Under the pieces are notes generated by a model that worked only from the letters and a program-made list of their open reading frames with translations, was not told the DNA's origin and did not search any database. The translations under genes and the position numbers were made by a program. A stretch of 64,000 nt of DNA from an uncultured Mycoplasmatota bacterium (lineage in GTDB: Bacteria > Bacillota_I > Bacilli_A > RF39 > UBA660), in NCBI GenBank assembly GCA_947056845.1, contig CAMSCJ010000003.1, positions 1-64,000 of the forward strand. The letters are read 5' to 3'. This document shows, piece by piece, positions 17,035 through 52,220 of this stretch (within the stretch, counting starts at the first letter, position 1; the number at the start of each line of letters is the position of its first letter).

Positions 17035-17104
17035 AAAAAATCCTCCTTATAAATAAATATGTTTTATTATGTGTGTGATATAAAATTTGTTGTAATATTG
17101 ATTT

Positions 17105-17210
17105 TACCTTTTGTTTATATCTAACGACTACACTTTTCCGTAACAGTATCCGCCGAACTTTTCGATAACTGTTATCCTCGTCAGCCAATTTGGCTCTGGC
17201 GCTAATTAAA
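17105..17210 (-). promoter_or_regulatory. glmS ribozyme/riboswitch
   Basis: On the minus strand the leader contains the conserved core in order: AGCGCCAGAG at the cleavage site (cleavage expected between A at 17203 and G at 17202), GACGAGG, ATCGAAAAGTTCGGCGG, then a P3/P4-like 3' part ending about 17105. These strings match the glmS ribozyme consensus, which cleaves the mRNA when glucosamine-6-phosphate binds. It lies ~70 nt upstream of glmS, as in other Bacillota. The 3' limit is approximate. Confidence 0.95.
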
Positions 17211-17253
17211 TATTATCTAACCTTACCTCCCTGATAATAGATAACTTTATTAC

Positions 17254-30726: not shown

Positions 30727-30738
30727 TTATGTTATTAT
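30710..30738 (+). promoter_or_regulatory. Promoter of the large non-coding RNA
   Basis: TTGACT (30710-30715), 17-bp spacer, TATTAT (30733-30738). Transcription is expected to start about 30745. Confidence 0.8.
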
Positions 30739-30744
30739 TTCGTT

Positions 30745-31358
30745 TGTAATGGCGCATTATTCTAGTCAATACAATCTATTATGAAGGTGGGCCTAAAAAT
30801 CCACTAAAGAGCATATCTGTGAAACTTTTTGTGCTTGCTTCTTACGCCCAGTTTGGGGTGAGTGCTGAAAGGAAGAGTTCTAGGGCGACCGTAATGGCAT
30901 ACGTTATCGACCCAGTTCTTGAGGAGACCCATTCTTGTGTTTAGCCTACACACATTATGTTGATGGACTAAATACGAAATGGGATTGAACCTACTAGGTG
31001 ATGAAAGTTACGAGTAGTGTAGCTTGTCTTGCGTGAGAATATGGGAATAACTGATCTACTAAAAATTTTTTGGCCAAAAAAATTTTTGGATTGCAGTTTG
31101 AAACTATTTTTGCAAAAAAGAATTAATTTTAGATTGATTGTCGAGGAAATCTCCTAGAATGTTTTTTAAGATAGGATTGCAGTGCGTACTAAGTGGTAAT
31201 CAAGTCATATGTTTGGCAACAATATATCAGATTTTTTAATGGGGAACCGCTTTTTGGTAACGAAAAGTAAAATTTGGGGAAATCCAACTTGACCTAAGAC
31301 GTAAAGTTTACTATTTTAAAGCCATTTATGTAAAAAGGGGTTTAGAAACCCTTTTTTT
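30745..31358 (+). ncRNA. Candidate large structured non-coding RNA (~610 nt)
   Basis: No coding frame covers this stretch, yet it begins at a near-perfect promoter and ends in a strong terminator at 31332-31358. It is visibly richer in G+C and in CC/GG blocks than the surrounding intergenic DNA (for example GGTGGGCC, GGGCGACC, GGGGAACCGC). Internal paired elements are visible, including a near-palindrome centred on TTTTTTGGCCAAAAAA at ~31074. It lacks the tmRNA tRNA-like ends and the RNase P core GAGGAAAGTCC. Length and setting fit large ornate Bacillota RNAs such as the ROOL, GOLLD or OLE classes; I cannot assign it to one by eye. Confidence 0.65.
31332..31358 (+). terminator. Terminator of the large non-coding RNA
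   Basis: AAAAA-G-GGGTTT / AAACCC-TTTTTTT hairpin with T run. Confidence 0.85.
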
Positions 31359-31532: not shown

Positions 31533-31561
31533 TTGTATAACGAACAAAAGTTTGTTAAAAT
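31533..31561 (+). promoter_or_regulatory. recG promoter with LexA (SOS) operator
   Basis: TTGTAT (31533-31538), 17-bp spacer, TAAAAT (31556-31561). Within the spacer, 31541-31554 reads CGAACAAAAGTTTG, which fits the Gram-positive LexA/DinR box CGAAC-N4-GTTYG. A LexA dimer here would block the promoter, so recG should be induced by DNA damage. Confidence 0.75.
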
Positions 31562-33638: not shown

Positions 33639-33733
33639 GCGTGATAGTATCACGCTGTGCTCTTACGGTTGAATGTGAGAGCGTAACCGAAACCCCCTGA
33701 AATTCCCCTCGAAAGAGGGGAATACTTTTGTTT
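33639..33733 (+). ncRNA. Small RNA gene used as integration target
   Basis: About 95 nt from promoter to terminator with no credible coding frame. The 5' end forms a 7-bp hairpin GCGTGAT/ATCACGC. Next GCTCT/AGAGC (33659-33663, 33678-33682) and CGGTT/AACCG (33666-33670, 33685-33689) interleave, which could form a pseudoknot. The 3' end is CCCCCTGAA followed by a GAAA-capped terminator. The class is not recognised. The 3' portion from 33693 is shared with 47042 and 52182, so integration appears to have replaced the native terminator by the element's own. Confidence 0.5.
33693..33733 (+). other. Attachment site, left end (attL-like)
   Basis: CCCCCTGAA, a stem of variable sequence with a GAAA loop (ATTCCCCTC/GAGGGGAAT), then ACTTTTGTTT. 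The same framework (CCCCCTGAA-N7-CGAAAG-N7-ACTTTTTGTT) recurs at 47042-47080 and 52182-52220 in direct orientation, bracketing the integrase-bearing module. The hairpin doubles as a terminator. Confidence 0.7.
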
Positions 33734-33765
33734 ATAAGGCCTTTTAAGGCTTTTTATTTTTTTCT

Positions 33766-33807
33766 AGATACCAAGCCAGATACCAAAAATTATATTCTAG
33801 ATACCAA
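33766..33807 (+). repeat. Integrase arm-type direct repeats, left
   Basis: AGATACCAA occurs at 33766-33774, 33778-33786 and 33799-33807, between the left attachment site and the integrase gene. The same word recurs at the right end (46906). Such short direct repeats near the ends are where the N-terminal domain of Tn916/lambda-type integrases binds. Confidence 0.7.
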
Positions 33808-33831
33808 AATAAATTATTTAATAGAGTTTAT

Positions 33832-34950
33832 TTAGATACTTAAGTTCAAATTGTCCATAGTATTTTTTACATCAGTTAAGTTATTAGGAAACATATGAGC
33901 ATAGGTATCTAATGTTTCTTTAGTACTAGCATGACCTAAATATTTAGATACAGTAGTTACTGGTTGACCTGTATTTATTAAAAGTGATGCACAACTGTGT
34001 CTAAAAGAGTGTAGTGGTATTCTTCTTATATCAGCATTTTTTGCAATTCTACCATTAATTCTAGACATCATTCCAAATGTTAATGGATCTAATTCTCCGA
34101 AGATAAACCATTTATTATTGAAGCCATAGTATTTCTTTTTTTGATTATATAGTTCTACTAAATCATTGTATAACACATCTGTAAGAGGTAAAGTTCTAAT
34201 ACTTTTTTGAGTTTTAGGTGGTGTTAGCTCATAAAATTTTTGACTATCTCTAACACTATTAGCTTGTTTAATAATAGAAACTTCTTTTTTATTCCAGTCT
34301 ATATCAGACCATTGAAGTCCACGACATTCACCTCTACGTAATCCACAATAATATAACATCTCAAACATTGTTTTATCATTTAAGTTATTAGCACCAGTTA
34401 TATATTTTTGAAATTCATTAAAAGTATATACATCTTTTTCTTCTTGCATTTCATTTGGATCTTTAAAAAACTCTATCTTTTTATAAAAACGCATTAAATT
34501 AATGTCATACATTTTCATTCCCCAGTTAAGAATTATTTTAAGAAACTTTTGAACATCATTTCTAGTAGAACATTTTATAGGCTTATTCCATAAATCTTGT
34601 TGAAATTTATGATACAAATTTCCATCCATATCTTTTAATTTAACATTTTCAAAATCAGTAAAATATCTTCTTCTTTTTAAATATGTTTCCATTGTTCTTC
34701 TTCTAACTTTATTTTTTTGTGATTCAATATATTGGTCGGTAAGAGTACCAAATGTCATATCCATATCTCCACCAAATTCAACTTTACTATTTAAAAAATC
34801 TCTTTCAGCATTCATTGCATCTAATTTAGTTTTATAAGCTTGTGAAAATTTTTTATGCCATTTACCACTTTTATCTTTCTCGTTCCAATAATATTTATAT
34901 TTACGACCATCTTTAGTCCACTCTTTCTTAGGTAATTTATATATTCCCAT
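33832..34950 (-). CDS. Tyrosine recombinase/integrase
   Basis: 372 residues, Tn916-type layout: N-terminal arm-binding region (WTKDGRKYKYYWNEKDKSGKW), a core-binding helix bundle (~residues 70-160) and the catalytic domain. The catalytic residues are all visible: Arg in YCGLRRGECRGL, HSFRH (His-x-x-Arg), His in LGHAS and the Tyr nucleophile in LDTYAHMFP near the C-terminus. AGGAGG precedes the ATG. It lies next to the left attachment site and is read towards it. It should catalyse integration and excision of the module. Confidence 0.95.
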   Translation of the reverse strand: MGIYKLPKKEWTKDGRKYKYYWNEKDKSGKWHKKFSQAYKTKLDAMNAERDFLNSKVEFGGDMDMTFGTLTDQYIESQKNKVRRRTMETYLKRRRYFTDFENVKLKDMDGNLYHKFQQDLWNKPIKCSTRNDVQKFLKIILNWGMKMYDINLMRFYKKIEFFKDPNEMQEEKDVYTFNEFQKYITGANNLNDKTMFEMLYYCGLRRGECRGLQWSDIDWNKKEVSIIKQANSVRDSQKFYELTPPKTQKSIRTLPLTDVLYNDLVELYNQKKKYYGFNNKWFIFGELDPLTFGMMSRINGRIAKNADIRRIPLHSFRHSCASLLINTGQPVTTVSKYLGHASTKETLDTYAHMFPNNLTDVKNTMDNLNLSI

Positions 34951-34986
34951 ATATTGTTCCTCCTTTTTTGGAATTTATAAATATAC

Positions 34987-35000
34987 CAGTTCGTAACAAT
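34987..35000. repeat. 14-bp inverted pair, left copy
   Basis: CAGTTCGTAACAAT; the exact reverse complement ATTGTTACGAACTG is at 47016-47029, 13 bp before the right attachment site. It lies ~37 bp upstream of the integrase start. Possible binding site for an accessory recombination factor. Confidence 0.5.
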
Positions 35001-35034
35001 ATCATTTTATCATATAAACTGATAATATTATAAA

Positions 35035-36416
35035 TCATCTTTCTAAATCATTTTTAGACCTTGAATTTTTCTTTAAATAATCACTCGTTTTATCAATAGC
35101 ATAATCAATATTATTTGCTTCATACCAAGTATATGGTATATGAAGAATATCAAATATTTTAGAAGTAAGAGAGAATATCTTATCTTGAATTTTTTTTTTG
35201 AATAGTTTAAATTCATCAGCTAATTCATCAAATTTATTCTTCCAATTATTTATTTCATTATCTTTTTGATTGATAATTTTCTTTTGATTATCTATGATTT
35301 TATTTTGCTCTTTGTAAGTTTTACCTGATTTAAAATCATTAATTTCTTTAGTAAGAGATTTAATTTCTAAATCTTTTCTTAAATTATCTTCAGCAAGTTC
35401 TTTTGAATAGGTTGATAATTATCTATATCTTCATCTTTATATTGCTTAATAATACCTTTTTTAATAGGATTTAAGATATCTTTTGACGTTTCTTTATCAA
35501 CTTTATCAATAAATATATTTTCACTTTTATTTGCCTCTTTTAATAGCCCATTTTCGCGTTTTATTTCTTTATTTAAAGCATTTAGTTCATATTGTTGTTT
35601 CATAGCATTAGTTAAATGAGTTTTATCTCCACCAATTTCTCCTCGAAATAAATTAAAACCTTTAGATTTTATAAATTCATTATAATCATCTTGCATAAGA
35701 GTATAAGAAGCATTACCACCTTTTTGTTTCCAAAATTGATCTGAATTTAGAAATTTACCTTTAACAGTTTCATAGATATTTTTTCCATTTTCATCCTTCT
35801 TTTGAATTGGTACTAGTTTCTTTTCTCCTTTTTTATTAGTTATTTCATGTTTTAATTGATGACCATTTTGATCTAGTTCAAATACTTTTCTTTTAACCTC
35901 ATTTACTACTGGAGTAAAATATATATGCATATGTGGTGTTGATTCATCTAGGTGTATAGCAGCATACATTATATTTTCTTTTCCTACAAAGTCTGCTATA
36001 AAGTTTAGACTCTCATCAAAATACCTTTTTATTTCAGTTGGTAATTGATGATTTTCATCTATAATTACATGTCTAATAGGTTTATCCTTATTATCTCCAG
36101 TTTTATAAACTTCACCAGTATCTATAAATTCCATACCATAGTGTTCAAAAAATTCTTGGCCACTAGTAATAATTAATCCATTTAATACTTTAGTACTTTT
36201 CTTATTTGGATTATAGTTAATATTGTTATTATAAAGATATTTATATGTTGAACTAGCTAGAGTAGGTTCATTATAATTTATTAATTCTATATTATAAGGT
36301 GTTCTAGTAGAATCATATTTTCCTGAACCTTTTCGCATCTTTAATTCTTTATCAAGTCCTCCTATATCTGATGCTTTAAATTTTTCTAATCGTAGTGCTT
36401 GTTTTCCTGAGTACAT
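35035..36416 (-). pseudogene. MobV-family relaxase, frameshifted near C-terminus
   Basis: The first frame (36416 to 35379, 345 residues) carries the Pre/Mob relaxase core: KELKMRKGSGKYDSTRT and the metal-binding HLDESTPHMHIYFTPV near residue 160. It then stops after LLKII. Removing one missing A near 35400 (CAAAAG where CAAAAAG would keep frame) continues without a stop for ~120 more residues of coiled coil to a TGA at 35035, giving ~461 residues. The nicking domain is intact, so partial function is possible. The protein would nick oriT to start conjugal transfer with a helper element. AAAGGAGG precedes the ATG. Confidence 0.8.
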
Positions 36417-36439
36417 TTATTTTCCCTCCTTTCACATCT

Positions 36440-36665
36440 TGTTTTAAAAATAATACTCTATCTCACTAGGGCATAATATATGCCCAATCGTGAGCTAAGG
36501 AATAATTCCTTAGAATCCTTTATGCTTGTTTTAGTTTCAACCAATACCTGATAAACAGGTAAAGGTACCAACTAAAGCAAGATTAATTAAACGATAACTA
36601 TATCATTTAATTAATTGATAATGAATTCACTATCGCCACTTTCATTTACTAAAGTAAACGGAAAC
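36440..36665 (-). other. Probable origin of transfer (oriT) region
   Basis: The ~260 bp between the relaxase and RepA-like genes are packed with inverted repeats: GGGCATA/TATGCCC, the palindrome CTAAGGAATAATTCCTTAG, ACCTG/CAGGT, TTAATTAAA/TTTAATTAA, TTTACT/AGTAAA and AAACGTG/CACGTTT. MobV elements carry oriT just upstream of the mob gene, as here. The exact nick site cannot be fixed by eye. Confidence 0.5.
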
Positions 36666-36674
36666 GTGCCACGT

Positions 36675-37625
36675 TTATTCATTATTCTCGGAAGGTTCTT
36701 CATAAGAACAATGCCATAATCTTTCAGTAGCAGTTCTTTTACTTGTTATATGAAGACCTTCACTTTCCAACAAACTTATGTGTCTTTGAATTAAACCACC
36801 AAGTTGTGTTGGTGTTAATAAAATATTTGTCTTAGATAAAATATCTGATATTGTATAATCAAAATCTTTCTTTTGGACTGCATATTTTATAAATAGTAGT
36901 AGATTATAATCAATTTCATCATCACTATTTTCATCAATTACTGAAAATGTTTGATTATCATTTCTTTTTAAATTTAATTCTAATCTACCTAAATCTCTAC
37001 CTTTATATGATAAAGTGAGCTTATTATAATTATTTTTAGATTCTTTTAATTTAATGATTCCAGATACATCAGCATTTAATCCAACACTACCCATAGTGTC
37101 ATCTCTTTTATTTAAGTGATGTGTAACGAGTAGAGTAATATTATATTTCTTACATAAATCTTTTAATTTTCTAAATACTACATCATTAATTTCTTGATAG
37201 TTATTTAAATCATAACTTGGATCAAACTTTATATCTTTAAACATATCCATAATGACAAATAAAGTTTCTCCATCAAATGTTAAATTATGAATATCTGTTT
37301 CAATATCTCTGATATAAAAGTCTGGTGTATCATCAGAATCTATCACATGAAATTTATCTATATTAGGTTTCAAATTCATCAATTTAAATCTTGATTCTAA
37401 TTGATTTATATCTCCCTCTGTGGTAATATATAAGATATGAGAGGGATTTACTTTGAATCCTAAAAAATCTTCTCCAGTAGTAAGAGAGAAGGCAAGTTGC
37501 TGCGCTAACATTGACTTGCCAACCTTAGGATGAGATACAAGTAGATAAACTCCGGCTGATATCATTAAGTTTTCAACAATGATATCTTTTTTTATTGTTT
37601 TATTTATTTCATTTAGTTGTTTCAC
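36675..37625 (-). CDS. RepA-like AAA/RecA-fold helicase ATPase
   Basis: 316 residues, GTG start with GGGAGATGAT upstream. RecA-fold features: Walker A SHPKVGKSM near residue 36, ITTEGD, Walker B FVIMDMFKDI, and VTHHLNKRDDTMGSVGLNADV, the sequence type of RSF1010 RepA/DnaB-like helicases and regulatory ATPases of small mobile elements. A C-terminal winged-helix-like region (~230-300) may bind DNA. It probably supports autonomous replication or mobilisation of the excised circle. It is followed by the oriT-like region and relaxase. Confidence 0.75.
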   Translation of the reverse strand: MKQLNEINKTIKKDIIVENLMISAGVYLLVSHPKVGKSMLAQQLAFSLTTGEDFLGFKVNPSHILYITTEGDINQLESRFKLMNLKPNIDKFHVIDSDDTPDFYIRDIETDIHNLTFDGETLFVIMDMFKDIKFDPSYDLNNYQEINDVVFRKLKDLCKKYNITLLVTHHLNKRDDTMGSVGLNADVSGIIKLKESKNNYNKLTLSYKGRDLGRLELNLKRNDNQTFSVIDENSDDEIDYNLLLFIKYAVQKKDFDYTISDILSKTNILLTPTQLGGLIQRHISLLESEGLHITSKRTATERLWHCSYEEPSENNE

Positions 37626-37638
37626 TTATATCATCTCC

Positions 37639-37890
37639 CTATATTTTTTTTGTTAATTCTTTACTAGAAACTCTAGATTCTAAATAAGGTATATCTATAT
37701 CAAAGAATGCTACAACTTCTTTTGTAGGTACAACAGACTTTGGAATAAGATAACCTTGTTTTTCTAATTTTTCTTTAATTTTTTTCTTAGCCTTTAGTGC
37801 AGAATTTCTACCTAGATGTCCAAGTTTCATAATATCTTCTAGGGTGCACCATTGTTTAGCTATTAAATTTAATGTTTCTTCTGCAGACAT
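37639..37890 (-). CDS. Small helix-turn-helix protein (DUF3173/Xis-like)
   Basis: 83 residues, with AAAGGAGGAAT upstream. CTLEDIMKLGHLGRNSALKAKKKIKEKL resembles the N-terminal helix-turn-helix of the small DUF3173/excisionase-like proteins common in integrative elements, followed by PTKEVVAFF. It may direct excision or regulate the element. It lies in the leftward operon between the winged-helix protein and RepA. Confidence 0.6.
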   Translation of the reverse strand: MSAEETLNLIAKQWCTLEDIMKLGHLGRNSALKAKKKIKEKLEKQGYLIPKSVVPTKEVVAFFDIDIPYLESRVSSKELTKKI

Positions 37891-37910
37891 TTTTATTCCT
37901 CCTTTCGTTT

Positions 37911-38165
37911 TTAATCTGTTTTTGGTGATACATAAACGTAATACGTATCATCTAAAGAACCATAAATAATATATTTCTTTTTTCTTAATTCTCTAAATGC
38001 TAAAGCAACATCTTTTCTACTATCATTACTAAGAGAGTAGAGGTCAATATTATTTAACTCATCATTAGGTCTAATTAATATAGAATTAAGCATTCTAGTT
38101 GCTTCTAAAGATAAGTCCTTAGGTACAACATAATCAGTAATATTCTCTTTTTTAAACAATCTCAT
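37911..38165 (-). CDS. Small winged-helix-like protein
   Basis: 84 residues, with GAAAGGAGG upstream. The central segment (SLSNDSRKDVALAFRELRKKKYIIYGSLDDTYYV) reads like a winged helix: a recognition helix followed by a beta hairpin. No family is recognised. It is the first gene of the leftward operon, directly after the operator region, so it may be a regulator or a replication-initiator partner of RepA. Confidence 0.5.
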   Translation of the reverse strand: MRLFKKENITDYVVPKDLSLEATRMLNSILIRPNDELNNIDLYSLSNDSRKDVALAFRELRKKKYIIYGSLDDTYYVYVSPKTD

Positions 38166-38195
38166 ATTTTAGCCTCCTTTCACTTTAAAATTTAA

Positions 38196-38274
38196 TGTCC
38201 GATAATAAGGACAATATAAATATAACACTGTCCAGAATTATTGTCAATGCTATTTTGTCCGAAAATGTAGACAA
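38196..38274. promoter_or_regulatory. Paired repressor operators between divergent operons
   Basis: Two 19-nt sites share the form TGTCCGA-(N)-GACAA: 38196-38214 (TGTCCGATAATAAGGACAA) and 38256-38274 (TGTCCGAAAATGTAGACAA). Each is an imperfect inverted repeat. A third TGTCC half-site lies at 38229 and TTGTC at 38241. They sit between the leftward rep/mob/int operon and the rightward operon containing an XRE repressor, a phage-like switch layout. Confidence 0.65.
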
Positions 38275-38397
38275 ACGATTAAAAAAGTGGTAAAATTAAA
38301 TTGTGCTGAAGAATAATGTACAAAAGAGAATAATAATAAATTAAAATAAATGATTGGAGTTTATTAATTAATTTCTAATTTAGTGAGAGGTGATAAG

Positions 38398-38880
38398 ATG
38401 GCAAATTATACATGGAATAATGATCTGGTTCCTAGTACTATAAAAGTAAAACAAGTTTATGGAATTGCTTTTACAAATGATTTTAGAATTTTACTAAGAA
38501 TTGAAGATAATAAATATAAATTAACCGGCGGAAAACCTGAAGTAAATGAGGATTATGAACAAACATTAAAAAGAGAATATATTGAAGAACTAAATGTTGA
38601 ATTAGAGGATTGTTATTATTTAGGCTACTTATTAGTTGAAGAAAACAATGAATCTTATGCACAAGTTAGAATGATTGCTAAAATAAAAAGCATAAATGAT
38701 AAACATATTGATCCAGCTAATGGCAAGATATACGACAGAAAATTAGTTTTACCTGATAGAGTAAAGAAATATTTAAATTATCAAGATAAAGCGGGTAATA
38801 TAATGTTAGACGAAGGTATTAATTTAGCAAAGAATACTTATGAATTTAATGAAAATTCTTTAAAAGAAGAATTAATATAA
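38398..38880 (+). CDS. Nudix-fold protein of the mobile element
   Basis: 160 residues from the ATG at 38398, with AGAGGTGATAAG upstream. Nudix box at residues ~46-68: GGKPEVNE...REYIEELNVEL, with the E and REUxEE residues present, although the first part reads GGKPE rather than GGxxE. The rest does not suggest a substrate. It is the first rightward gene after the operators and precedes the XRE regulator by 14 bp. Confidence 0.75.
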   Translation: MANYTWNNDLVPSTIKVKQVYGIAFTNDFRILLRIEDNKYKLTGGKPEVNEDYEQTLKREYIEELNVELEDCYYLGYLLVEENNESYAQVRMIAKIKSINDKHIDPANGKIYDRKLVLPDRVKKYLNYQDKAGNIMLDEGINLAKNTYEFNENSLKEELI

Positions 38881-38894
38881 TAGGAGTGGTATAA

Positions 38895-39425
38895 ATGAAT
38901 TCAGAAGAACTTAAAAATTTAATTGAATCAGCTAGAGAGGTAAAAGGTATTTCGCAAAGAGAACTTGCTAAATTAACAGGAATTAGTAGAAGTACTTTAA
39001 ATGATTTAATTAATGGAAAAATAAAAAAAGTAGATATAGATGATCTACGTAAGATTGCTGAAACTTTAGATATGTCATTATCTAAATTATTAAAAGTTGC
39101 AGGATATGATGAAATGTCTTTATATTTTCATGCGCATAAAACAAAAGATAAATACGCTGATAAATCTAGTAAAGATTTAAAAGAATTGATAGAAAAATAT
39201 AAAGAATCTGAAACAAATTTATTACAATTTGATTCTAATAAAAGAGATAAAACAAGAGAAGCAGGTTTTGTGATATTTGAAGTAGTAGAACATTTAAAAT
39301 TACTTAAAGATGGAAAAAGTAAATATACATTAGAACAAGCTATAGAAGAATTAACTAAAGCTCAAGAATTACTTAATCCTGTTATGGAAAAATATGATTA
39401 TAGTAAACTACCTAAGAAAAATTAA
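38895..39425 (+). CDS. XRE-family transcriptional regulator
   Basis: 176 residues. The helix-turn-helix covers residues ~6-65 (AREVKGISQRELAKLTGISRSTLNDLINGK), followed by a helical ~110-residue C-terminal region of unknown role. AGGAGTGG precedes the ATG. Its place beside the divergent TGTCC operators suggests it represses the rep/mob/int operon and itself, like a phage cI-type switch. Induction mechanism is not visible; no RecA-cleavage or peptidase motif is seen. Confidence 0.85.
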   Translation: MNSEELKNLIESAREVKGISQRELAKLTGISRSTLNDLINGKIKKVDIDDLRKIAETLDMSLSKLLKVAGYDEMSLYFHAHKTKDKYADKSSKDLKELIEKYKESETNLLQFDSNKRDKTREAGFVIFEVVEHLKLLKDGKSKYTLEQAIEELTKAQELLNPVMEKYDYSKLPKKN

Positions 39426-39437
39426 CTATACTAAATA

Positions 39438-39463
39438 AATTGGTCAGTTGCGACTGACCAATT
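39438..39463 (+). promoter_or_regulatory. Perfect 11-bp hairpin without T run
   Basis: AATTGGTCAGT-TGCG-ACTGACCAATT between the XRE gene and the SnoaL-like gene. With no T run it is more likely a protein-binding or RNA-processing site than a terminator. Confidence 0.45.
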
Positions 39464-39482
39464 CAAAGAAAGGAATTATAAT

Positions 39483-39827
39483 ATGAATAAAGAATATATT
39501 GAAAAATGGTTGAATAATTTAAAAAATTATTGGTTTAATAAAGATATAGAAAGTGCAGTTTCTTTATTTACTAAAACAACATTTTATCAAGAAACTCCAT
39601 TTATGAAACCGTATATAACTTTAGAAGAAATAAATCAAGAATGGCAACATGTAAAAAATGAAAACATTCAAACTATTGAGTTTAAAATATTAGCAATAGA
39701 TGGTAATAAAGTTATAGTTGAATGGCTTTTAAAACAAAACGATATTGATTATGATGGTATTTATGAAATTAAATTCAATGATGATTTAGAATGTATATAT
39801 TTTAAAAGTTGGGAGATGACAAAATGA
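39483..39827 (+). CDS. SnoaL/NTF2-like small protein
   Basis: 114 residues. The alternating helix-strand pattern with LKNYWFNKDIESAVSLFTKTTFYQETPF at the start and VEWLLKQNDIDYDGIYEIKF at the end fits the NTF2-like/SnoaL cone fold often annotated as nuclear transport factor 2 family. AAAGGAATT is upstream. The product is a small ligand-binding or isomerase-type protein; the substrate is unknown. It is coupled to the hydrolase downstream by a 4-bp ATGA overlap. Confidence 0.65.
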   Translation: MNKEYIEKWLNNLKNYWFNKDIESAVSLFTKTTFYQETPFMKPYITLEEINQEWQHVKNENIQTIEFKILAIDGNKVIVEWLLKQNDIDYDGIYEIKFNDDLECIYFKSWEMTK

Positions 39828-40360
39828 ACTATATAATATTACATGGTAGTTTTGGATCAAAAGATGGTAATTGGTTTCCATGGTTAAAAGAACAATTAAC
39901 AAATAACGGTAAAATTGTTGAATGCCCTCAAATGCCTGTTGGTGTAGGAAATCAAAATTTTGAAAATTGGTCTAATGTTATGGATACTTTAACAATAAAC
40001 GAAAATACAACTATTATTGCTCATAGTATTGCTCCAATATTTGTATGTAAATATTTAATATCAAATAAAATTAAAGTAAATAAATTAATATTTGTTTGTG
40101 GATTTAATAATTATTTAGGAATAGATAATGATTTTGATGCTGTAAATGGACCAATGTTTATAGATAACTTTGATGATGTTAAGAAATTATGTAATGATAT
40201 TGTTTGCTACTATTCAGATAATGATCCATATGTTAAATTTGAAGTAGAAAAAGATTTTGCAGATAAGCTTACTGAAAAACAATTTATTATTAAAAATGGT
40301 GGGCATATAAATTCAGAAAGTGGATATACAAAGTTTGAAGAAATTTTAACGGAGATATAA
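39824..40360 (+). CDS. Small alpha/beta hydrolase (RBBP9/YdeN family)
   Basis: 178 residues from the ATG at 39824, which overlaps the upstream stop. It begins ILHGSFGSKDGNWFPWLKEQL and continues VECPQMPV and NWSNVMDTL, the pattern of the RBBP9/YdeN serine hydrolases. The nucleophile motif reads AHSIAP rather than GHSxG, which is usual in this family; YYSDNDPYV supplies the Asp and NGGHINSESGY the His. The substrate is unknown. Confidence 0.8.
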   Translation: MNYIILHGSFGSKDGNWFPWLKEQLTNNGKIVECPQMPVGVGNQNFENWSNVMDTLTINENTTIIAHSIAPIFVCKYLISNKIKVNKLIFVCGFNNYLGIDNDFDAVNGPMFIDNFDDVKKLCNDIVCYYSDNDPYVKFEVEKDFADKLTEKQFIIKNGGHINSESGYTKFEEILTEI

Positions 40361-40361
40361 G

Positions 40362-40703
40362 ATGAATGTTGATGTTAAAAGAGTGAAAATTTTTGTGACT
40401 ATACCATTAGAAAATGTAGAAGAAGTTAGAAATGCAGTTTGTGAAGTAGGTGCAGGTGTAATTGGAAATTATACTTATTGTACTTCATCAGTTAAGTCAA
40501 TCGGTACTTTTATGCCAAATGATAATGCTAATCCTTATATTGGTAAAAATAATAATTTAGAATTTGTGGAAGAAGAAAAATTAGAATTTGTTTGTGATAT
40601 TGATAATGTTAAACAAGTAATCACTAAATTAAGAAAAATACATCCTTATGAAGAACCTGCAATAGATATTTTTCCTTTGATTGATGAAGAAGCTTTCAAA
40701 TAA
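40362..40703 (+). CDS. Stand-alone NIF3/YqfO-type PII-like domain protein
   Basis: 113 residues, one base after the hydrolase stop. The sequence VKIFVTIPLENVEEVRNAVCEVGAGVIGNYTYCT, GTFMPNDNANPYIG and HPYEEPAIDIFPL match the CutA1/PII-like domain that is inserted into NIF3/YqfO proteins and also occurs alone. It is usually regarded as a small-molecule or metal-binding module. It is translated in one cluster with the flanking genes. Confidence 0.75.
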   Translation: MNVDVKRVKIFVTIPLENVEEVRNAVCEVGAGVIGNYTYCTSSVKSIGTFMPNDNANPYIGKNNNLEFVEEEKLEFVCDIDNVKQVITKLRKIHPYEEPAIDIFPLIDEEAFK

Positions 40704-40714
40704 TAAGGATATGT

Positions 40715-41476
40715 ATGATAGCTAATAAAGAAAATATTGATAAATTGGTTAAAAAGGCACATGATTATTATGGTAATAAAGATTCAAGTACTTTAGCAAC
40801 TGTTGATTTTCCAAAAGAAATAAAATATAAAAGCAATGAATGGTTAATTTATATCTTTTATTCTTGTTTATTAGACTATGGTATGAGATCACAAAACTAT
40901 CATAAAAATTTAATAAATACTTATCATATTTATCCACAAATATTTAATCCAAATTATGCTCTAAGTAAATTTACTAAAGAAGAATTATTAAATATAATGA
41001 AAAATAATATACATCCTAGATATCCTAATGTTGCTTTAGATAAATGGATAAATTTATCATTAGAATTATCAAAATATGATAATTTAGTAGACATAATTAA
41101 AAAATTTAATAGTTTTAATGAACTTAATATGTTTGTTAGAAATATTAAAGGATATGGTCAAAAAACAGGTGGGTTATTACTTAGATTAATATATGAATCT
41201 AAAATATGTGAATTTAACGATAATTTAGGTTATATTCCTTTAGATAGGCATGATATAGAAATAAGTTATTTAAATAATATTATTGATAGTCAAAAATTAA
41301 ATAATAGTCAAATTGAAGAACTGTCTAGTGCATACATAGAAAGTGGTAACAAGTTAGATATAGATGCAAATCTTATAGATAAATATTTGTGGAATATTGG
41401 TAATGAGTTTTGTAATAAAAAGAATTGTATTGATTGCCCATTATGTAATGATTGTAAAACAAAGTTGAATAAATAG
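40715..41476 (+). CDS. Endonuclease III-like protein with C-terminal Fe-S motif
   Basis: 253 residues. A helix-hairpin-helix of HhH-GPD type is seen at NIKGYGQKTGGLLLRLIYES, followed by PLDRHDIEIS, the usual place of the catalytic Asp. The tail FCNKKNCIDCPLCNDCK has five closely spaced cysteines, similar to the [4Fe-4S] loop of endonuclease III/MIG-type glycosylases. The long N-terminal part is unusual. It could be a base-excision DNA glycosylase carried by the element, but could also act on modified phage DNA (inference). Confidence 0.65.
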   Translation: MIANKENIDKLVKKAHDYYGNKDSSTLATVDFPKEIKYKSNEWLIYIFYSCLLDYGMRSQNYHKNLINTYHIYPQIFNPNYALSKFTKEELLNIMKNNIHPRYPNVALDKWINLSLELSKYDNLVDIIKKFNSFNELNMFVRNIKGYGQKTGGLLLRLIYESKICEFNDNLGYIPLDRHDIEISYLNNIIDSQKLNNSQIEELSSAYIESGNKLDIDANLIDKYLWNIGNEFCNKKNCIDCPLCNDCKTKLNK

Positions 41477-41518
41477 TTGAACATTAAATAATTCTAAAAT
41501 GGCAAGGAGATAAATTAT

Positions 41519-41980
41519 ATGATAATTGATATTATTGAAAAAAATTTAAATAGAATAGAAAATGATTTAAATGAAATAGAAGGATTAGAAAACATAGACT
41601 TTATTGACATATTCCCAACAAGTGAAGAACATAAATTGCAGTTAGAAAACGAAATTAATAATATAGCAACACTAAAACTTAAAACTGAAAGAGGAAATAT
41701 ATATACTTTAAATAATCCTTTGGATACTAAATATGGCAAATTAGAGTGGATTAAGATTCGCTATTTTGATGAAAGTCGCCTAAATTGGGAAGCAGCAGCC
41801 GATTTTGTTGTAAAAGATAGAAATGTTTTATTTGATAAAGTTGATAAAGATGAAAGATTTACTTATATTAAAAGGACTGATTGGGATGCTATAGAATTTA
41901 AAACTAAAGATACATTAATTTATTTTTTGCAGCCATTAGCTTCAGAAGTGTATAGTAAAAAGGAAAGAGAAAATGGATAA
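41519..41980 (+). CDS. Hypothetical protein, partner of zeta-like kinase
   Basis: 153 residues, unrecognised. The N-terminal ~35 residues are strongly helical and acidic (IIEKNLNRIENDLNEIEGLEN); the rest is mixed with IRYFDESRLNWEAAADFVV. AAGGAG is upstream of the ATG. Its stop overlaps the zeta-like kinase start by 8 bp. This tight coupling, small size and acidic character would suit an antitoxin, but it does not resemble the known epsilon or PezA antitoxins. Confidence 0.5.
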   Translation: MIIDIIEKNLNRIENDLNEIEGLENIDFIDIFPTSEEHKLQLENEINNIATLKLKTERGNIYTLNNPLDTKYGKLEWIKIRYFDESRLNWEAAADFVVKDRNVLFDKVDKDERFTYIKRTDWDAIEFKTKDTLIYFLQPLASEVYSKKERENG

Positions 41981-42827
41981 TAAAATTTTAGAAAAATTGA
42001 TTGATAAATATAAGTTATTAGAAGAAGAACATAATAGAGTTTTAGAAATGCTCAAAAAAGATATTTTTAAAGGTAAGAAATCAGAAGAAAATCCTTCTAT
42101 CATGTTTGTTATAGGGCAACCTGGATCAGGTAAAACAACATTTATAAACTATGCTAATTTATCTAATTATATAGTTATAAATTCTGATGATTATCGACAT
42201 TTTAGTAAATATTCTAAAGAAATACTGACCAAACATTCAACTTATTATACAAAGTTAACAAATTTTGATGCACATTTATGGGGAGATGAACTTTTTTCAT
42301 ATGCGATAAATAGTGGATATTCAGTTCTAAGAGAAAAAGCTCCTATTGATTATAGTTTGTTGAAATTAATTAAAACACTATTATCTAAATATGATGTAGT
42401 TATTAATGTAATGGTTGAAGGTAATTTGGAAAGTTTATTAAGAACTAGAGAAAGATATGAAAAAGAAGTATTAAAAAATAACAATGCTAGGCTATCAAAT
42501 ATTGATTCACATAACAAATGCTATAATTTATTACCTGATTTTATTTCCAAATGTTTAATATGTGGTGCAAAAGTAAATTATGTTGTACCAGTTAATAATG
42601 AATTTAAAATTATTCAAGTTGATAATGATAATTTAAACTTGTTAGAAAAAATAAGAAAAGAAAGTAATGAACAAGCTTGTTGTAATTATGAGATGAGAAT
42701 GAATAATATTAAAAAATCAATGCTAAATAGAAATGCTCCACAAGAACAATTTGAAGAACTTATTAGAATAGATAAAGTATATTTTGATATGATTCGTTCT
42801 TATTCAGATAATAAATGTAAAAAATGA
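41973..42827 (+). CDS. Zeta-toxin-like P-loop kinase
   Basis: 284 residues. Walker A IGQPGSGKTTF near residue 48, followed by YIVINSDDYRHF, which corresponds to the zeta-toxin (i)D-x-D-x(n)R substrate motif, and FDAHLWGDELFSYAINSGYSVLREKAP, the zeta LID/substrate region. Zeta toxins phosphorylate UDP-N-acetylglucosamine and block peptidoglycan synthesis; whether this protein does so is inference. The N-terminal ~40 residues form a helix. It lies 8 bp into the upstream unknown gene, and a long inverted repeat covers its stop codon. Confidence 0.7.
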   Translation: MDNKILEKLIDKYKLLEEEHNRVLEMLKKDIFKGKKSEENPSIMFVIGQPGSGKTTFINYANLSNYIVINSDDYRHFSKYSKEILTKHSTYYTKLTNFDAHLWGDELFSYAINSGYSVLREKAPIDYSLLKLIKTLLSKYDVVINVMVEGNLESLLRTRERYEKEVLKNNNARLSNIDSHNKCYNLLPDFISKCLICGAKVNYVVPVNNEFKIIQVDNDNLNLLEKIRKESNEQACCNYEMRMNNIKKSMLNRNAPQEQFEELIRIDKVYFDMIRSYSDNKCKK

Positions 42828-42884
42828 CACAATGACACTATTAATGAGACTAGGGTACCCACAAACAATGTGTCACTGTGTCAT
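42824..42884. repeat. 15-bp inverted repeat at end of zeta-like gene
   Basis: ATGACACAATGACAC (42824-42838) and GTGTCACTGTGTCAT (42870-42884) pair with one mismatch around a 31-nt loop containing GGGTACCC. It overlaps the stop codon and has no T run. Each arm also holds two TGACAC words, so it may be a protein-binding array or an RNA-stabilising hairpin. Confidence 0.6.
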
Positions 42885-42919
42885 AGAAATTATCATATTA
42901 ATAGGAAAATATTGGAAAA

Positions 42920-42990
42920 TGTGCTATAATTGGTATATAAAAAGGAAGCGCTAGTACAGGCTTATTTTATAAGTTTTTGTATTGGCGCTT
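42920..42990 (+). promoter_or_regulatory. Promoter and structured leader of the helicase gene
   Basis: Extended -10 TGCTATAAT (42922-42930). The leader then forms a 12-bp stem AGCGCTAGTACA (42947-42958) / TGTATTGGCGCT (42978-42989, with G-U pairs), enclosing a second small stem CTTAT/ATAAG, followed by TTTT. It looks like an attenuator-type hairpin before the ATG at 43014. Confidence 0.5.
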
Positions 42991-43013
42991 TTAAGTAGTA
43001 AGGAAGTGAAAGA

Positions 43014-45968
43014 ATGGAATATCGTATTGAGGAAAATTTAATAAATTGTCAGTGCAATTATGATGGTAATGAAGTTTTAAAAAAGGATATAATAAAGTCA
43101 TGGGATAATAATTTAAATTATGATTTATTAGAAAAAAAACTAAGGAAGCCACAATTGGGCGCACTATATGCTTTGAAATCTCATTTTACTGTTTCTAATA
43201 ATGAAGCAACTATTGTGATGCCAACTGGAACAGGCAAAACAGAAACTATGTTGTCATATATAGTCAGTGAAAAATTAGAACAGGTATTAATTATATTGCC
43301 AAGTGTTTTATTAAGGGATCAAACTTATAATAAATGTAAAACCTTAGGTCTTATTTCACAATTTAAAATATTGAATGAAAAGGCATCATTACCAAATGTA
43401 TGCATGTTAAAAAAAACACCAAGTGATAAAGAAACATTTGAAAGCATTACACAAAATGTTAATATTATTGTTTCGACAATAGGTATTATATCTAGACTTA
43501 ATGATGAACAGATAGATGTTCTTAAGAAAAATTGTAGTGCTGTAATAATTGATGAAGCGCATCATATTGCTGCTAAAACTTGGAATAATGTAAAATCTAA
43601 GTTTAGAAATTTGAAAATAATACAATTCACTGCCACGCCTTTTAGAAATGATAATAAAAAAATAGATGGTAAAATTATTTATAATTATCCATTAAGTAAT
43701 GCACAAAAAGAAGGCTATTTTACAAAAATAAATTTTAATCCTGTAATTGAATATGATATTTCGAAATCAGATATTGAAGTTGCTAAAAAATCAATTTCAA
43801 TTTTGAAAAATGATATTGAAAATGGGTACGATCATTTATTGTTAGTAAGAGCTGGTTCAAAGAAAAGAGCATTAGATTTATATGAAAAAATATATAAAAA
43901 ATTTTATAGTAATTATAACCCAGTATTGATTACAAGTAATCAGACAAAAAATACAAATAAAGATAATTTGTCAAAATTAAGAAGTTTGGAATCGAGAATA
44001 GTTGTTTGTGTAGATATGTTTGGTGAAGGAATAGATTTACCTAATTTAAAAATTGCGGCCATTCATGATAAATATAAAAGTTTACCAATTACCCTTCAAT
44101 TTATAGGGCGCTTTGCTAGGGTTAGTAATGAGAAAATTGGAAATGCATCATTAGTGGCTAATATTATGCTTGAAGAGGTTAATGAAGAAATAAAACAATT
44201 GTATTCACTAGACTCTAATTGGGATTATATAATTAGCGATTTATCAAAAACTGCAATAGGTAAGGAAATATCTTTTCAGCAATTTATGAGTGGTTTTGAT
44301 ATAGAACAATTACGAGATATTTCAGTAAAACAGTTAGTTCCAAAAGTAAGTATGGTTGCATATAAAACTGATATAAGAGAATGGCAAATAGAAAATTGGA
44401 AAAAAATATTTAATGATGAATTATCTGTAATTTCAATAAATGAAGAAAATAATACATTTGTAATTATTGAAGCAATTGAGTCTCCAATTTCTTGGACATC
44501 GAATAAAATTATAACTAATAAAATATTGGAGTTATATGTTGTTTATTGGAATAAAGAAAAGAATACAGTATTTATAAATTCATCTAATAAAACAATCTCA
44601 AATATGATAGCAGACAAAATCTTTAATACAACGAATAAAATTACTGGAGATGTAGTATTTAGGGCATTATCTGGGATTAATCGATTAATGATGGCTTCAG
44701 TAGGATTAAGAACTGCTATCAATGGACCAATTAGATATAAAATGTATGCTGGTATTGATATTGCATCGGGTATAAGTGATTCTGCGGCAGGCACTTCCAT
44801 AAAATCTAACATATTTGGTACTGGATATGATGGTAATGGTAAGGTTTCTATTGGTTGTTCATATAAAGGAACGATATGGTCTAAATGGGTAGAAACAATA
44901 GATTATTGGAAGAATTGGTGTGACAATATACTTGATAAATTATTGGATGATTCAATCAACACACAAGATATTTTAAATTCAGCATTAGTTCCTAAAGTTA
45001 TTAATAAAAGGCCTACTCATGTACCAATTTCTATAGAATGGCCAGATGAGTTAGCAATTGAGGATTATAATAAATATTTTATTAAAAGCGGTATAAATGA
45101 GAATAGTCTAGATGAAATAGATTTAAAAATAGTAGATGCGGAATTACTAGATAAAAATATAACATTTTTAATAAATGATTTACAGTTTCAGTTAGAAATT
45201 ACTAATAAAGGTTATAAATTTATAAATATTTCTGGTAAAAAAGTAGAATTGTTTAAAAATAATAATAGTATGGGAAATATAAGTGATTACTTTACAGAAA
45301 ATCCACCAAGGATTTTCTTTGATAATCAGTCATCACTTGAAGGTAATCTTTATGTGGAGATTAATAAAGATCTTTCTAATTATTTTCATAAAGATAGAAT
45401 AATTAAAGAAAATTGGAACAACGTAGATATTTCAGTTGAATCACAAACAAAGAATAAAATTAAAAATTCTATTCAATATCATATAATTAGCAAATTAAAA
45501 GAAAATAATAAATATCAAGTTATTTTTGATGATGATGGGTCTGGAGAAATTGCAGATATAGTAACTTTAAGAAACGACGAAAAATGTATTTATATTGAAT
45601 TATATCATTGTAAGTTTAGTGGTAAAAATACTCCTGGAAAGAGAATAAGTGATTTATATGAAGTATGTGGACAATGTCAAAAATCTATTAAATGGAGGGC
45701 AAATATAGATATAATAATTGACCATATGTTACATAGGGAGAATTTAGCACAAGAAAAAAATTATTCAAGAATTGAACTTGGAGATATAGAAACCATATAT
45801 AAGTTCAAAAATTTATTAAAATGTAAAAAAATAGATATGAAAATATTTATTGTTCAGCCTGGAGTAGATTCTAAAAATATTACTCCAGATATGATGTATT
45901 TATTAAGTTGTACACAATCATATTTGATAGATACATATAATGTTCCTTTAACTATGATTTGTTCATAA
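43014..45968 (+). CDS. SF2 DEAD/DEAH helicase with C-terminal nuclease-like region
   Basis: 984 residues. Helicase motifs in order: Walker A MPTGTGKTE (residues 69-77), motif Ia ILPSVLLRDQ, DEAH box IIDEAHHIA near 180, SATP-like FTATPFRND near 212, and motif VI QFIGRFARVS near 365. A ~400-residue middle region is unassigned. Near residues 830-870 the pattern GEIADIVTL...CIYIELYHCKFSG resembles a PD-(D/E)xK nuclease core (Asp, then Glu-x-Tyr...Lys). AGGAAGTG precedes the ATG. Helicase-nuclease fusions on mobile elements are frequently anti-phage genes (for example Nhi- and Hna-type proteins); assignment to a named system is not possible by eye. Confidence 0.75.
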   Translation: MEYRIEENLINCQCNYDGNEVLKKDIIKSWDNNLNYDLLEKKLRKPQLGALYALKSHFTVSNNEATIVMPTGTGKTETMLSYIVSEKLEQVLIILPSVLLRDQTYNKCKTLGLISQFKILNEKASLPNVCMLKKTPSDKETFESITQNVNIIVSTIGIISRLNDEQIDVLKKNCSAVIIDEAHHIAAKTWNNVKSKFRNLKIIQFTATPFRNDNKKIDGKIIYNYPLSNAQKEGYFTKINFNPVIEYDISKSDIEVAKKSISILKNDIENGYDHLLLVRAGSKKRALDLYEKIYKKFYSNYNPVLITSNQTKNTNKDNLSKLRSLESRIVVCVDMFGEGIDLPNLKIAAIHDKYKSLPITLQFIGRFARVSNEKIGNASLVANIMLEEVNEEIKQLYSLDSNWDYIISDLSKTAIGKEISFQQFMSGFDIEQLRDISVKQLVPKVSMVAYKTDIREWQIENWKKIFNDELSVISINEENNTFVIIEAIESPISWTSNKIITNKILELYVVYWNKEKNTVFINSSNKTISNMIADKIFNTTNKITGDVVFRALSGINRLMMASVGLRTAINGPIRYKMYAGIDIASGISDSAAGTSIKSNIFGTGYDGNGKVSIGCSYKGTIWSKWVETIDYWKNWCDNILDKLLDDSINTQDILNSALVPKVINKRPTHVPISIEWPDELAIEDYNKYFIKSGINENSLDEIDLKIVDAELLDKNITFLINDLQFQLEITNKGYKFINISGKKVELFKNNNSMGNISDYFTENPPRIFFDNQSSLEGNLYVEINKDLSNYFHKDRIIKENWNNVDISVESQTKNKIKNSIQYHIISKLKENNKYQVIFDDDGSGEIADIVTLRNDEKCIYIELYHCKFSGKNTPGKRISDLYEVCGQCQKSIKWRANIDIIIDHMLHRENLAQEKNYSRIELGDIETIYKFKNLLKCKKIDMKIFIVQPGVDSKNITPDMMYLLSCTQSYLIDTYNVPLTMICS

Positions 45969-46094
45969 CAACTTTAAATTTATGCTTATTAATGATATGA
46001 AATATAAAATAAGTATTAATTTAGTAAAACTTGGTAAATTATTAAAAATGTATGTATAATGTAGATTATAACAACATGGAATTGCATCACATAT

Positions 46095-46118
46095 ATTTTG
46101 ACAAAATGTCGTCAAAAT
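46095..46118. promoter_or_regulatory. Inverted repeat upstream of the ToxI array
   Basis: ATTTTGAC-AAAATGTC-GTCAAAAT, an 8-bp perfect inverted repeat ~110 bp before the antitoxin repeats, resembling an operator. The rest of 45969-46208 shows no gene. Confidence 0.45.
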
Positions 46119-46208
46119 ATAGACAAGATTACTATTTTATGATATATTATTAGCACATAAGTGATTATGTTATGCAGAAATGCATATACTAATAATGCCT
46201 TATGGCAA

Positions 46209-46320
46209 TAAAAAAGCTAGTGATTCCCACTATAAGAGGAACTTAAAAAAGAAGCGATTCCGGCTTTGACAGGAACTTAAAAAAGCGGCGATTCCGGCCA
46301 TAACAGTGAAATTAAAAAAG
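46209..46320 (+). ncRNA. ToxI-type RNA antitoxin repeats (type III TA)
   Basis: Three tandem degenerate repeats of 34-35 nt (46209-46243, 46244-46277, 46278-46312) plus the first 8 nt of a fourth. Each begins TAAAAAAG, continues to GATTCC and ends near GGAACT. They are followed by a terminator and then a ToxN/AbiQ-like gene. This is the defining layout of type III toxin-antitoxin loci, in which each repeat is processed into an RNA that binds and inhibits the toxin. Confidence 0.8.
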
Positions 46321-46346
46321 AAACTAGAGAGCACACTCTAGTTTTA
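46321..46346 (+). terminator. Terminator between antitoxin RNA and toxin gene
   Basis: Perfect 9-bp stem AAACTAGAG/CTCTAGTTT with loop AGCACA and TTTT. In type III systems a leaky terminator here sets the excess of RNA antitoxin over toxin mRNA. Confidence 0.85.
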
Positions 46347-46386
46347 TTATGCTTTTTAGTATATAATATCTATTGAAGGTGATATC

Positions 46387-46899
46387 ATGAAAGAATCATT
46401 AATTTTAGTTAGATTAGATACAGAATATTGTAATTATTTAAGAAGATTTGATGACAAGGTTCCTTATAATTATAATGAAAAGGAATTAAGACCATTTGTT
46501 GGTATATTATTTGAAGTTAATAACTGTAAGTATTTTGCACCCTTATCTAGTCCTAAACCAAAACATTTAAAATTAAGATCTAAATTAGACTTTTTAAAAA
46601 TAGATAATGGTAAACTAGGTGCAATTAATTTTAATAATATGTTACCTGTTACTGAAAATAATATAATTAAGTTAGATTTAGATAAAGAGTGTTTAACTAA
46701 ATCAGAAGAAAAATATACCAAATTATTAAAGGACCAAATCTATTGGTTAAATCGTAATAGCGAAAAATTATATGGAAGATCTAAAAAATTATATGATAAA
46801 TATATAAATGGTACATTAGATTCAAATATTGCTAAAAGATGTTGTGATTTTAAATTATTAGAAGAAAAGTGCAATGAGTATAATAATGTAATAGTATAG
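46387..46899 (+). CDS. Type III toxin, ToxN/AbiQ family endoribonuclease
   Basis: 170 residues, the usual size for ToxN/AbiQ. GAAGGTGATATC lies before the ATG. Family hallmarks: a Tyr-rich N-terminus ending in KVP, RPFVGILFEVN, the active-site stretch YFAPLSSPKPKH (residues ~49-60) and KLGAINFNNMLPV. The toxin cuts RNA, including its own antitoxin precursor, and on phage infection is released to abort growth. It forms a unit with the repeats and terminator directly upstream. It is the last gene before the right attachment site of the element. Confidence 0.88.
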   Translation: MKESLILVRLDTEYCNYLRRFDDKVPYNYNEKELRPFVGILFEVNNCKYFAPLSSPKPKHLKLRSKLDFLKIDNGKLGAINFNNMLPVTENNIIKLDLDKECLTKSEEKYTKLLKDQIYWLNRNSEKLYGRSKKLYDKYINGTLDSNIAKRCCDFKLLEEKCNEYNNVIV

Positions 46900-46905
46900 T
46901 TTTCC

Positions 46906-46927
46906 AGATACCAAATTCAGATACTAA
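46906..46927 (+). repeat. Integrase arm-type direct repeats, right
   Basis: AGATACCAA (46906-46914) and AGATACTAA (46919-46927), matching the three copies at the left end. Confidence 0.65.
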
Positions 46928-47015
46928 ATGCAAAAAATAATGTTATTTTAATAAACTTTGATAAATTAAAAAAAATTAAAAAGCCTTATTTTACAAGACT
47001 TTAGTACAATTTTAA

Positions 47016-47029
47016 ATTGTTACGAACTG
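47016..47029. repeat. 14-bp inverted pair, right copy
   Basis: ATTGTTACGAACTG, the exact reverse complement of 34987-35000, 13 bp before the right attachment site. Confidence 0.5.
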
Positions 47030-47041
47030 ATATTAATATTT

Positions 47042-47080
47042 CCCCCTGAAGAGTCAGCGAAAGCTGGCTCACTTTTTGTT
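47042..47080 (+). other. Attachment site, middle copy (attR of module 1)
   Basis: CCCCCTGAA, then GAGTCAGC-GAAA-GCTGGCTC hairpin and ACTTTTTGTT. It is nearly the same as 52182-52220 and shares framework with 33693-33733. It marks the junction of the two tandem modules. Confidence 0.7.
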
Positions 47081-52181: not shown

Positions 52182-52220
52182 CCCCCTGAAGAGTCAGCGA
52201 AAGCTGGATTACTTTTTGTT
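52182..52220 (+). other. Attachment site, right copy (end of mobile region)
   Basis: CCCCCTGAA, GAGTCAGC-GAAA-GCTGGATT and ACTTTTTGTT; 35 of 39 bases or more identical to 47042-47080. Core chromosomal genes resume after it. The 52221-52417 stretch is AT-rich with no visible gene. Confidence 0.7.

Follow-up and report, generated by a model that had tools for sequence, protein, structure and literature searches.

Type III toxin-antitoxin systems are, according to a review, transcribed from a single promoter (PMC5086642). Among their antitoxin RNAs, ToxI-Bt has 2.9 units of 34 nt and antiQ 2.8 units of 35 nt (PMC5086642), and the ToxIN clusters of E. coli have 3-5.6 units (PMC8860590). In experiments antiQ required at least 1.8 repeats and ToxI-Pa 2.5 (PMC5086642). 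The known ToxN:ToxI complex is a 3:3 ring (PMC8860590), whereas CptIN has 45-nt units, two repeats and a heterotetrameric complex (PMC4627078). The catalytic residues of ToxN-Pa are Thr52, Ser53 and Lys55; the corresponding residue of AbiQ is Ser51 (PMC5086642 for the AbiQ position).

Here we describe a locus in a 64,000-nt stretch of DNA (the window) from an uncultured Mycoplasmatota bacterium of the gut. We computed the family and fold of the toxin, the gene order, the repeat array and its covariation, the association between array size and toxin integrity, and the limits of the carrier element. With a probability of about 95%, the locus is a complete type III ToxIN/AbiQ system, forming part of the accessory cargo of an integrative mobilizable element. 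The initial annotation, made from the letters of the window, had proposed such a system, and the profile, fold and repeat covariation data support it.

The toxin gene

46387-46899, plus strand: toxN, 170-aa ToxN/AbiQ-family endoribonuclease (Pfam, PADLOC, PDB sequence and fold)

The gene is preceded by the ribosome-binding site AAGGTG. Its product scored 170.4 bits against Pfam PF13958 ToxN_toxin (cut-off 25), which was the sole Pfam report, and 141 bits against the AbiQ model of PADLOC; the profile search suggested by the initial annotation thus gave a clear hit. The three segments quoted there as family hallmarks (RPFVGILFE, FAPLSSPKPKH, GAINFNNM) are all present in the 170-residue frame. 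The solved relatives found by sequence were 4ato (91 bits), 7d8o, 2xd0 and 4glk. An AlphaFold model of the toxin (pLDDT 89.8), compared with solved structures by Foldseek, matched the same four entries, that is ToxN-Bt, ToxN-Ec, ToxN-Pa and AbiQ, with TM scores of 0.77-0.82, the best E-value being that of 4ato. Nothing unrelated was found with this model at E <= 0.001, and CptN and MazF were far behind.

Three residues at aligned active-site positions are candidates for catalysis: Ser54, which corresponds to Ser51 of AbiQ and Thr52 of ToxN-Pa, Ser55 and Lys57. Ser55, Pro56, Lys57, Lys59 and His60 are invariant among 30 homologs. AbiQ retains RNase activity whether residue 51 is Ser or Thr (PMC5086642), therefore Ser54 is compatible with activity.

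Two other assignments were considered. Membership in the CptIN or TenpIN groups was rejected: the CptN fold match had an E-value of 0.03, and Pfam returned ToxN_toxin alone. ToxN and MazF/Kid share a common fold, and there was a weak match to a MazF structure (4mzt, E 0.34), which could suggest an RNase of the MazF/Kid fold outside type III, preceded by an unrelated regulatory repeat. This reading is hardly credible: both sequence and fold are far closer to ToxN/AbiQ, a pseudoknot array and a terminator precede the toxin in nearly all homologs, and the Pfam and fold matches, taken with the covariation described below, refute it.

Repeat array and pseudoknot units

Tandem Repeats Finder (TRF) detected an array at 46209-46322 with a period of 34, 3.3 copies, 78% matches and a score of 133. 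When the window was scanned without gaps in a 35/34 register, the top scores of the whole window fell in the region around 46183-46208. The three tandem units of 34-35 nt in the initial annotation were confirmed, but its partial fourth unit turned out to be an A-tract followed by the 5′ arm of the terminator.

46216-46244, plus strand: ToxI unit 1, GCTAGTGATTCCCACTATAAGAGGAACTT (TRF; pseudoknot covariation); helices S1 TAGTG/CACTA and S2 TTCC/GGAA; followed by A6 at 46245-46250
46251-46278, plus strand: ToxI unit 2, GAAGCGATTCCGGCTTTGACAGGAACTT (TRF; pseudoknot covariation); helices S1 of the AAGC/GCTT type and S2 TTCC/GGAA; followed by A6 at 46279-46284
46285-46313, plus strand: ToxI unit 3, GCGGCGATTCCGGCCATAACAGTGAAATT (TRF); helices S1 GGC/GCC and S2 TTC/GAA, or TTCC/G-GAA with one bulged base; followed by A6 at 46314-46319

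The A6 linker (AAAAAA) lies directly 3′ of each of the three units. Each unit is predicted, from comparison of sequences, to be an H-type pseudoknot of ToxI architecture, with a weaker S2 in unit 3. Between units 1 and 2 the S1 helices differ by compensatory changes (TAGTG/CACTA and AAGC/GCTT). Unit 3 keeps S1, and its S2 either is limited to three pairs or contains a bulge; the same GNGAA variant is also found in the last unit of six related loci (L001, L004, L005, L012, L020 and L085). Single-strand folding of the whole array by a program blind to pseudoknots revealed no extra stability relative to shuffled sequences (z +0.7).

The pseudoknot prediction was examined in about 120 homologous loci. 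Units were picked by the spacing of the A-tracts only, without any pairing rule, and 158 distinct units were parsed. S1 was complementary in 155 of them (mean 116 and maximum 125 after 1000 shuffles of the partners), and S2 in 131 (mean 75, maximum 88, likewise from 1000 shuffles). More than a dozen helix sequences occur among the units; S2 for example appears as TTCC/GGAA, GCCA/TGGC, CCCA/TGGG, TCCA/TGGA, CCTC/GAGG, ACTT/AAGT, GGCA/TGCC and GTCA/TGAC. In a set of 28 representatives 91% of the cells pair, two-sided changes occur at seven of the eight pairs, and there are 36 compensated cells versus 7.4 in shuffles. Sliding the partner by 1-3 columns abolished the signal in these representatives. 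The fold of the repeat unit as a pseudoknot, proposed as a check in the initial annotation, is thus borne out by two-helix covariation across relatives.

First units of the related arrays (GCT[AG]GTG..CAC[TC]A) tend to have an extra base before the core stem, which lengthens the first helix. The extra base, which also appears to be a new observation, was seen in 41 of 59 first units versus 12 of 59 for second and third units alike; the unit at 46216-46244 is the first unit of the window array.

Promoter, leader and terminator

46120-46148, plus strand: predicted sigma-70-type antitoxin promoter (consensus scan, 10/12 matches)
46155-46170, plus strand: predicted 5′-terminal antitoxin hairpin ACATAA-GTGA-TTATGT with a GNRA tetraloop (leader alignment)
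46171-46209, plus strand: rest of the conserved leader, an ATGCA-N4-TGCAT hairpin or palindrome, then a GCC..GGC hairpin (leader alignment)
46320-46345, plus strand: intrinsic terminator hairpin between antitoxin and toxin (folding)

The predicted promoter consists of TAGACA, a 17-nt spacer and TATATT, with TG before the -10 element. Homology to close relatives in other genomic surroundings begins at 46114-46137, near this promoter. Judged from the promoter, the antitoxin transcript most likely starts near 46154, so that the hairpin at 46155-46170 would be at its 5′ end.

Among 28 aligned leaders the first helix shows two-sided changes at three of six pairs, with 99% of the cells paired; the second helix is nearly invariant and consequently yields little covariation evidence. 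Somewhere in the leader, 44 of 91 loci have a GNRA hairpin, versus 3.2 in shuffles. At 33 of these 44 loci the stem is CATAA/TTATG, CTTAA/TTAAG or CACAA/TTGTG, usually a few bases from the -10 element; at the remaining ones, the hairpin listed for the window included, another hairpin was counted (GAAA loop, second leader hairpin). The exact GNRA-hairpin pattern of the window occurs once in its genome and once in a sister genome, at toxIN in both. The conserved GNRA hairpin predicted at the 5′ terminus of the antitoxin leader appears to be a new observation, and it may plausibly guard the antitoxin from decay starting at the 5′ end.

The hairpin terminator noticed in the initial annotation lies, as described there, between repeats and toxin. 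It has 10 pairs (-11.5 kcal/mol, z -4.5), and the 1.15-kb stretch examined contains three terminator-like sites versus 0.1 expected. Unit 1 might also pair with the terminator arm, but this idea was dropped: CTAG is a palindrome, and A/T tracts pair unspecifically.

Relatives and the number of units

Genome contigs contained 59 loci with ToxN homologs, up to 94% identical to the window toxin. Within the same bacterial family 75 of 386 genomes had a ToxN above the Pfam cut-off, versus none of 14 control genomes. The best plasmid relatives were 43% identical and phage relatives 41%; a nucleotide search of plasmids yielded matches inside toxN alone. Since viral contigs (one) and phage records (two) yielded distant relatives alone, the cassette is not typically phage-borne in the collections searched. 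DNA homology to close relatives in other surroundings spans only about 46115-46905, from promoter to stop codon, with different genes around it, which suggests that the cassette moves as a self-contained unit.

Three is the commonest number of units among the relatives. In about a fifth of the toxN homologs of the family the frame is truncated or interrupted by stops or frameshifts, so that selection for the system is not constant; most of these loci have arrays reduced to 0-2 units. Tallies of units are given raw and hand-corrected, the automatic count being off at a few loci. Among these loci, which come from related MAGs and short-read assemblies that may collapse identical repeats, at least three units were counted in 70 of 85 with an intact toxin (67 with exactly three) versus 4 of 21 with a broken one (Fisher p = 9e-8); after correction by hand the numbers were 75 of 84 and 4 of 21 (p = 8e-10), roughly 90% versus 20%. 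Some intact loci have one or two units (L016, L029). Array shrinkage may follow loss of the toxin, and the direction of cause could be either way. The association agrees with the experimental minima for antiQ and ToxI-Pa cited above.

The initial annotation had called the repeats few and degenerate compared with the classic ToxI. Three units are ordinary, considering ToxI-Bt, antiQ and the E. coli clusters. Degeneracy would favour a decayed remnant, made up of an inactive toxin and units that have ceased to neutralise it, and this reading can point to the differences between units, the weakened S2 of unit 3 and the broken toxin frames of relatives. We consider it very improbable: the window toxin has a complete frame with all invariant residues, and its locus has three units whereas broken relatives usually have fewer. 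Most of the differences between units are compensatory and recur position by position in relatives, for which reason the unequal units were rejected as a sign of decay.

Three units would also be enough to occupy every slot of one 3:3 ring, by analogy with the solved complex.

LexA-like boxes in relatives

Between terminator and toxN, 26 of 119 loci have a palindrome resembling CGAACN4GTTCG at a score of at least 7 out of 10, versus 3.2 in shuffles; at a score of at least 8 there were 11 loci versus 0.2. None of 95 antitoxin leaders reached a score of 8. Eighteen of the 26 palindromes lie on a second promoter-like pattern for the toxin gene (a TTGAC-like box, 15-19 nt, TA-N3-T), several being near-perfect, e.g. 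TTGACAAACCTATGTTCGTATAGATATAAT. Loci with LexA-like boxes include L006, L024, L028, L031, L037, L084, L090, L099, L103, L119, L125, L132, L138, L142, L143, L155 and L157. Similar boxes occur in the promoters of lexA itself in these genomes, among them the window genome; in one genome only two such sites were found, and one of them is that of toxN. For the window's own toxN, with a gap of 47 nt, there was no LexA box.

On these patterns, about a fifth of the relatives are predicted to have toxN under LexA control, with the box overlapping or beside a second promoter; the window is not among them. If the boxes are real, they break the textbook statement of a single promoter for type III systems (PMC5086642), and DNA damage would be tied to an RNase of phage defence. 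No paper found by full-text search connects ToxN with LexA control in its title or abstract.

Tentatively, at somewhat less than even odds, we propose that the loci form a ToxIN branch of its own design, common in one family of uncultured gut Bacilli. Its antitoxin RNA would begin with a GNRA-capped hairpin and carry three unequal units, the first tending to have the extra base, sized to fill a single 3:3 ToxN:ToxI ring. In about one-fifth of the relatives toxN would have acquired a promoter of its own, overlapped or flanked by a LexA box, through which DNA damage, in addition to failing antitoxin transcription, would raise the toxin level; the window, having no LexA box, would lack this last feature.

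Some other features of the window were noted. OLE RNA (RF01071, 395.6 bits) occupies 30733-31341, directly upstream of recG. OLE RNA has mostly been described from extremophilic Gram-positives; the host here belongs to small-genome uncultured Bacilli. Between OLE RNA and recG there is a LexA-box-like sequence, CAAACTTTTGTTCG (31541-31554, minus strand). A glmS ribozyme (77.5 bits) is found at 17067-17214, upstream of the gene for glucosamine-fructose-6-phosphate aminotransferase, as usual.

The carrier element

33693-33701, strand not assigned: attL-like core repeat CCCCCTGAA, left limit of the element (repeat search; empty site)
47042-47050, strand not assigned: attR-like core repeat CCCCCTGAA, right limit of the element (about 140 bp downstream of toxN)

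The 9-bp repeat occurs three times in the window, versus 0.05 expected; the third copy, at 52182, has the same following hairpin. Homology of the left flank to a genome of the same genus (G003) stops at 33681. G003 has CCCCCTGAA at this place, and the element is absent: recG is followed by the uninterrupted sequence ...CCCCCTGAAGAG... On the other side, the stretch shared with the element end of L001 reaches as far as 47045. The integrative mobilizable element delimited in this way measures about 13.3 kb (33693-47050) and lies downstream of recG. Genes for a tyrosine integrase, a Mob/Pre relaxase and an AAA ATPase (helicase-like gene) are in its left part, and AGATACCAAA repeats resembling integrase arm sites lie inside both ends. 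Among the cargo genes are those for a DEAD/ResIII helicase and a Zeta-toxin-like kinase. ToxIN lies closest to the right end, with no gene in between; the two cores confirm the right-end position stated in the initial annotation.

The Zeta-toxin-like kinase gene (PF06414, 41519-42827) is preceded by an overlapping 153-aa ORF without a Pfam match, and the two may form another toxin-antitoxin pair of the element. The ResIII/DEAD helicase has 984 aa (43014-45968), lies just upstream of toxIN and has a long C-terminal part without Pfam matches; it is a candidate defence gene.

The location raises the question of whether this genuine ToxIN mainly stabilises the mobile element, by addiction on its loss, and provides no phage defence. 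The cassette adjoins the attR of an element with integrase, relaxase and helicase-like genes, the same element end with toxIN is found in L001 and L020, and the antitoxin RNA has been reported to be shorter-lived than the toxin (PMC5086642), all of which speak for such a role. Relatives of the cassette also occur in unrelated surroundings, however, and ToxIN-Pa and AbiQ are shown phage-defence systems (PMC5086642). Stabilisation without defence is rather unlikely, although it deserves some weight; the two roles are compatible with each other.

Proposed mode of action

Known ToxIN systems suggest the following picture of how the RNA would be processed and read through, how the ring would assemble, and how toxicity and phage defence would arise. 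The single promoter at 46120-46148 would produce an RNA that starts with the GNRA-capped hairpin and contains three pseudoknot units separated by A6. Most transcripts would end at the hairpin 46320-46345, and a minority would read through into toxN. ToxN would cut the precursor into units of 34-35 nt, most likely within the A-rich linkers, and would be held inactive by these units, most likely in a closed 3:3 ring. ToxN would be freed if the supply of antitoxin failed, for instance on loss of the element or after a phage has stopped transcription in the host. The freed enzyme could then cut cellular and phage RNA, leading to abortive infection, maintenance of the element, or both.

Comparison with known systems

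The Rfam ToxI model (RF02519) had no match at E <= 10 in the window and none at E <= 1 in ten loci. Genuine antiQ itself scored merely 26.8 bits against this model (gathering score 50), so the model is narrow and an absent match is weak evidence. The antitoxin group is outside the Rfam ToxI model, which is not striking on that ground alone. The suggestion in the initial annotation that the repeat may be unreported holds as far as Rfam is concerned, but the repeat is common in public genomes of related gut Bacilli. The kind of system is well known, whereas the antitoxin sequence group and some regulatory features of the relatives look undescribed.

The best solved relative of the window toxin (91 bits) is that of ToxIN from Bacillus thuringiensis pAW63 (4ato). 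The two systems have the same gene order and a near-identical length and number of units (34 nt x 2.9; PMC5086642). The toxins are about 32% identical, and the Rfam ToxI model did not match the arrays described here. AbiQ/antiQ of Lactococcus lactis pSRQ900 (L177; 4glk) is alike in fold and order, with 35 nt x 2.8 in antiQ. The toxins are 33.5% identical, and the window toxin has Ser at the position of AbiQ Ser51. The antiQ units, TTGGAGTATCCAAGCCATAGTTGGAATTGATAAAA, end in GATAAAA, whereas the linkers of the window are A6.

Plasmid-borne ToxN/AbiQ systems of Fusobacterium (L174), Lactococcus UCCL632 (L175) and Sutcliffiella (L176) have toxins 39-43% identical to that of the window. Their arrays have 3-4 units, A-rich linkers and a first stem of the GGTGA..ACC type, as here; S2 and the loops differ, and the array region is without nucleotide similarity at blastn sensitivity. 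CptIN of Eubacterium rectale (4rmo) is likewise a type III system with a pseudoknot antitoxin and shares the core fold at low similarity (E 0.03), but the window protein clearly belongs with ToxN and is not a CptN.

The analysis adds a well-supported ToxIN group of uncultured bacteria, whose antitoxin is not recognised by Rfam. Across many loci it also gives comparative support to the ToxI pseudoknot and to the coupling of array size to toxin integrity. Compared with the described systems the locus is a true ToxIN of a known family, and the comparative pattern is of more interest than the locus itself.
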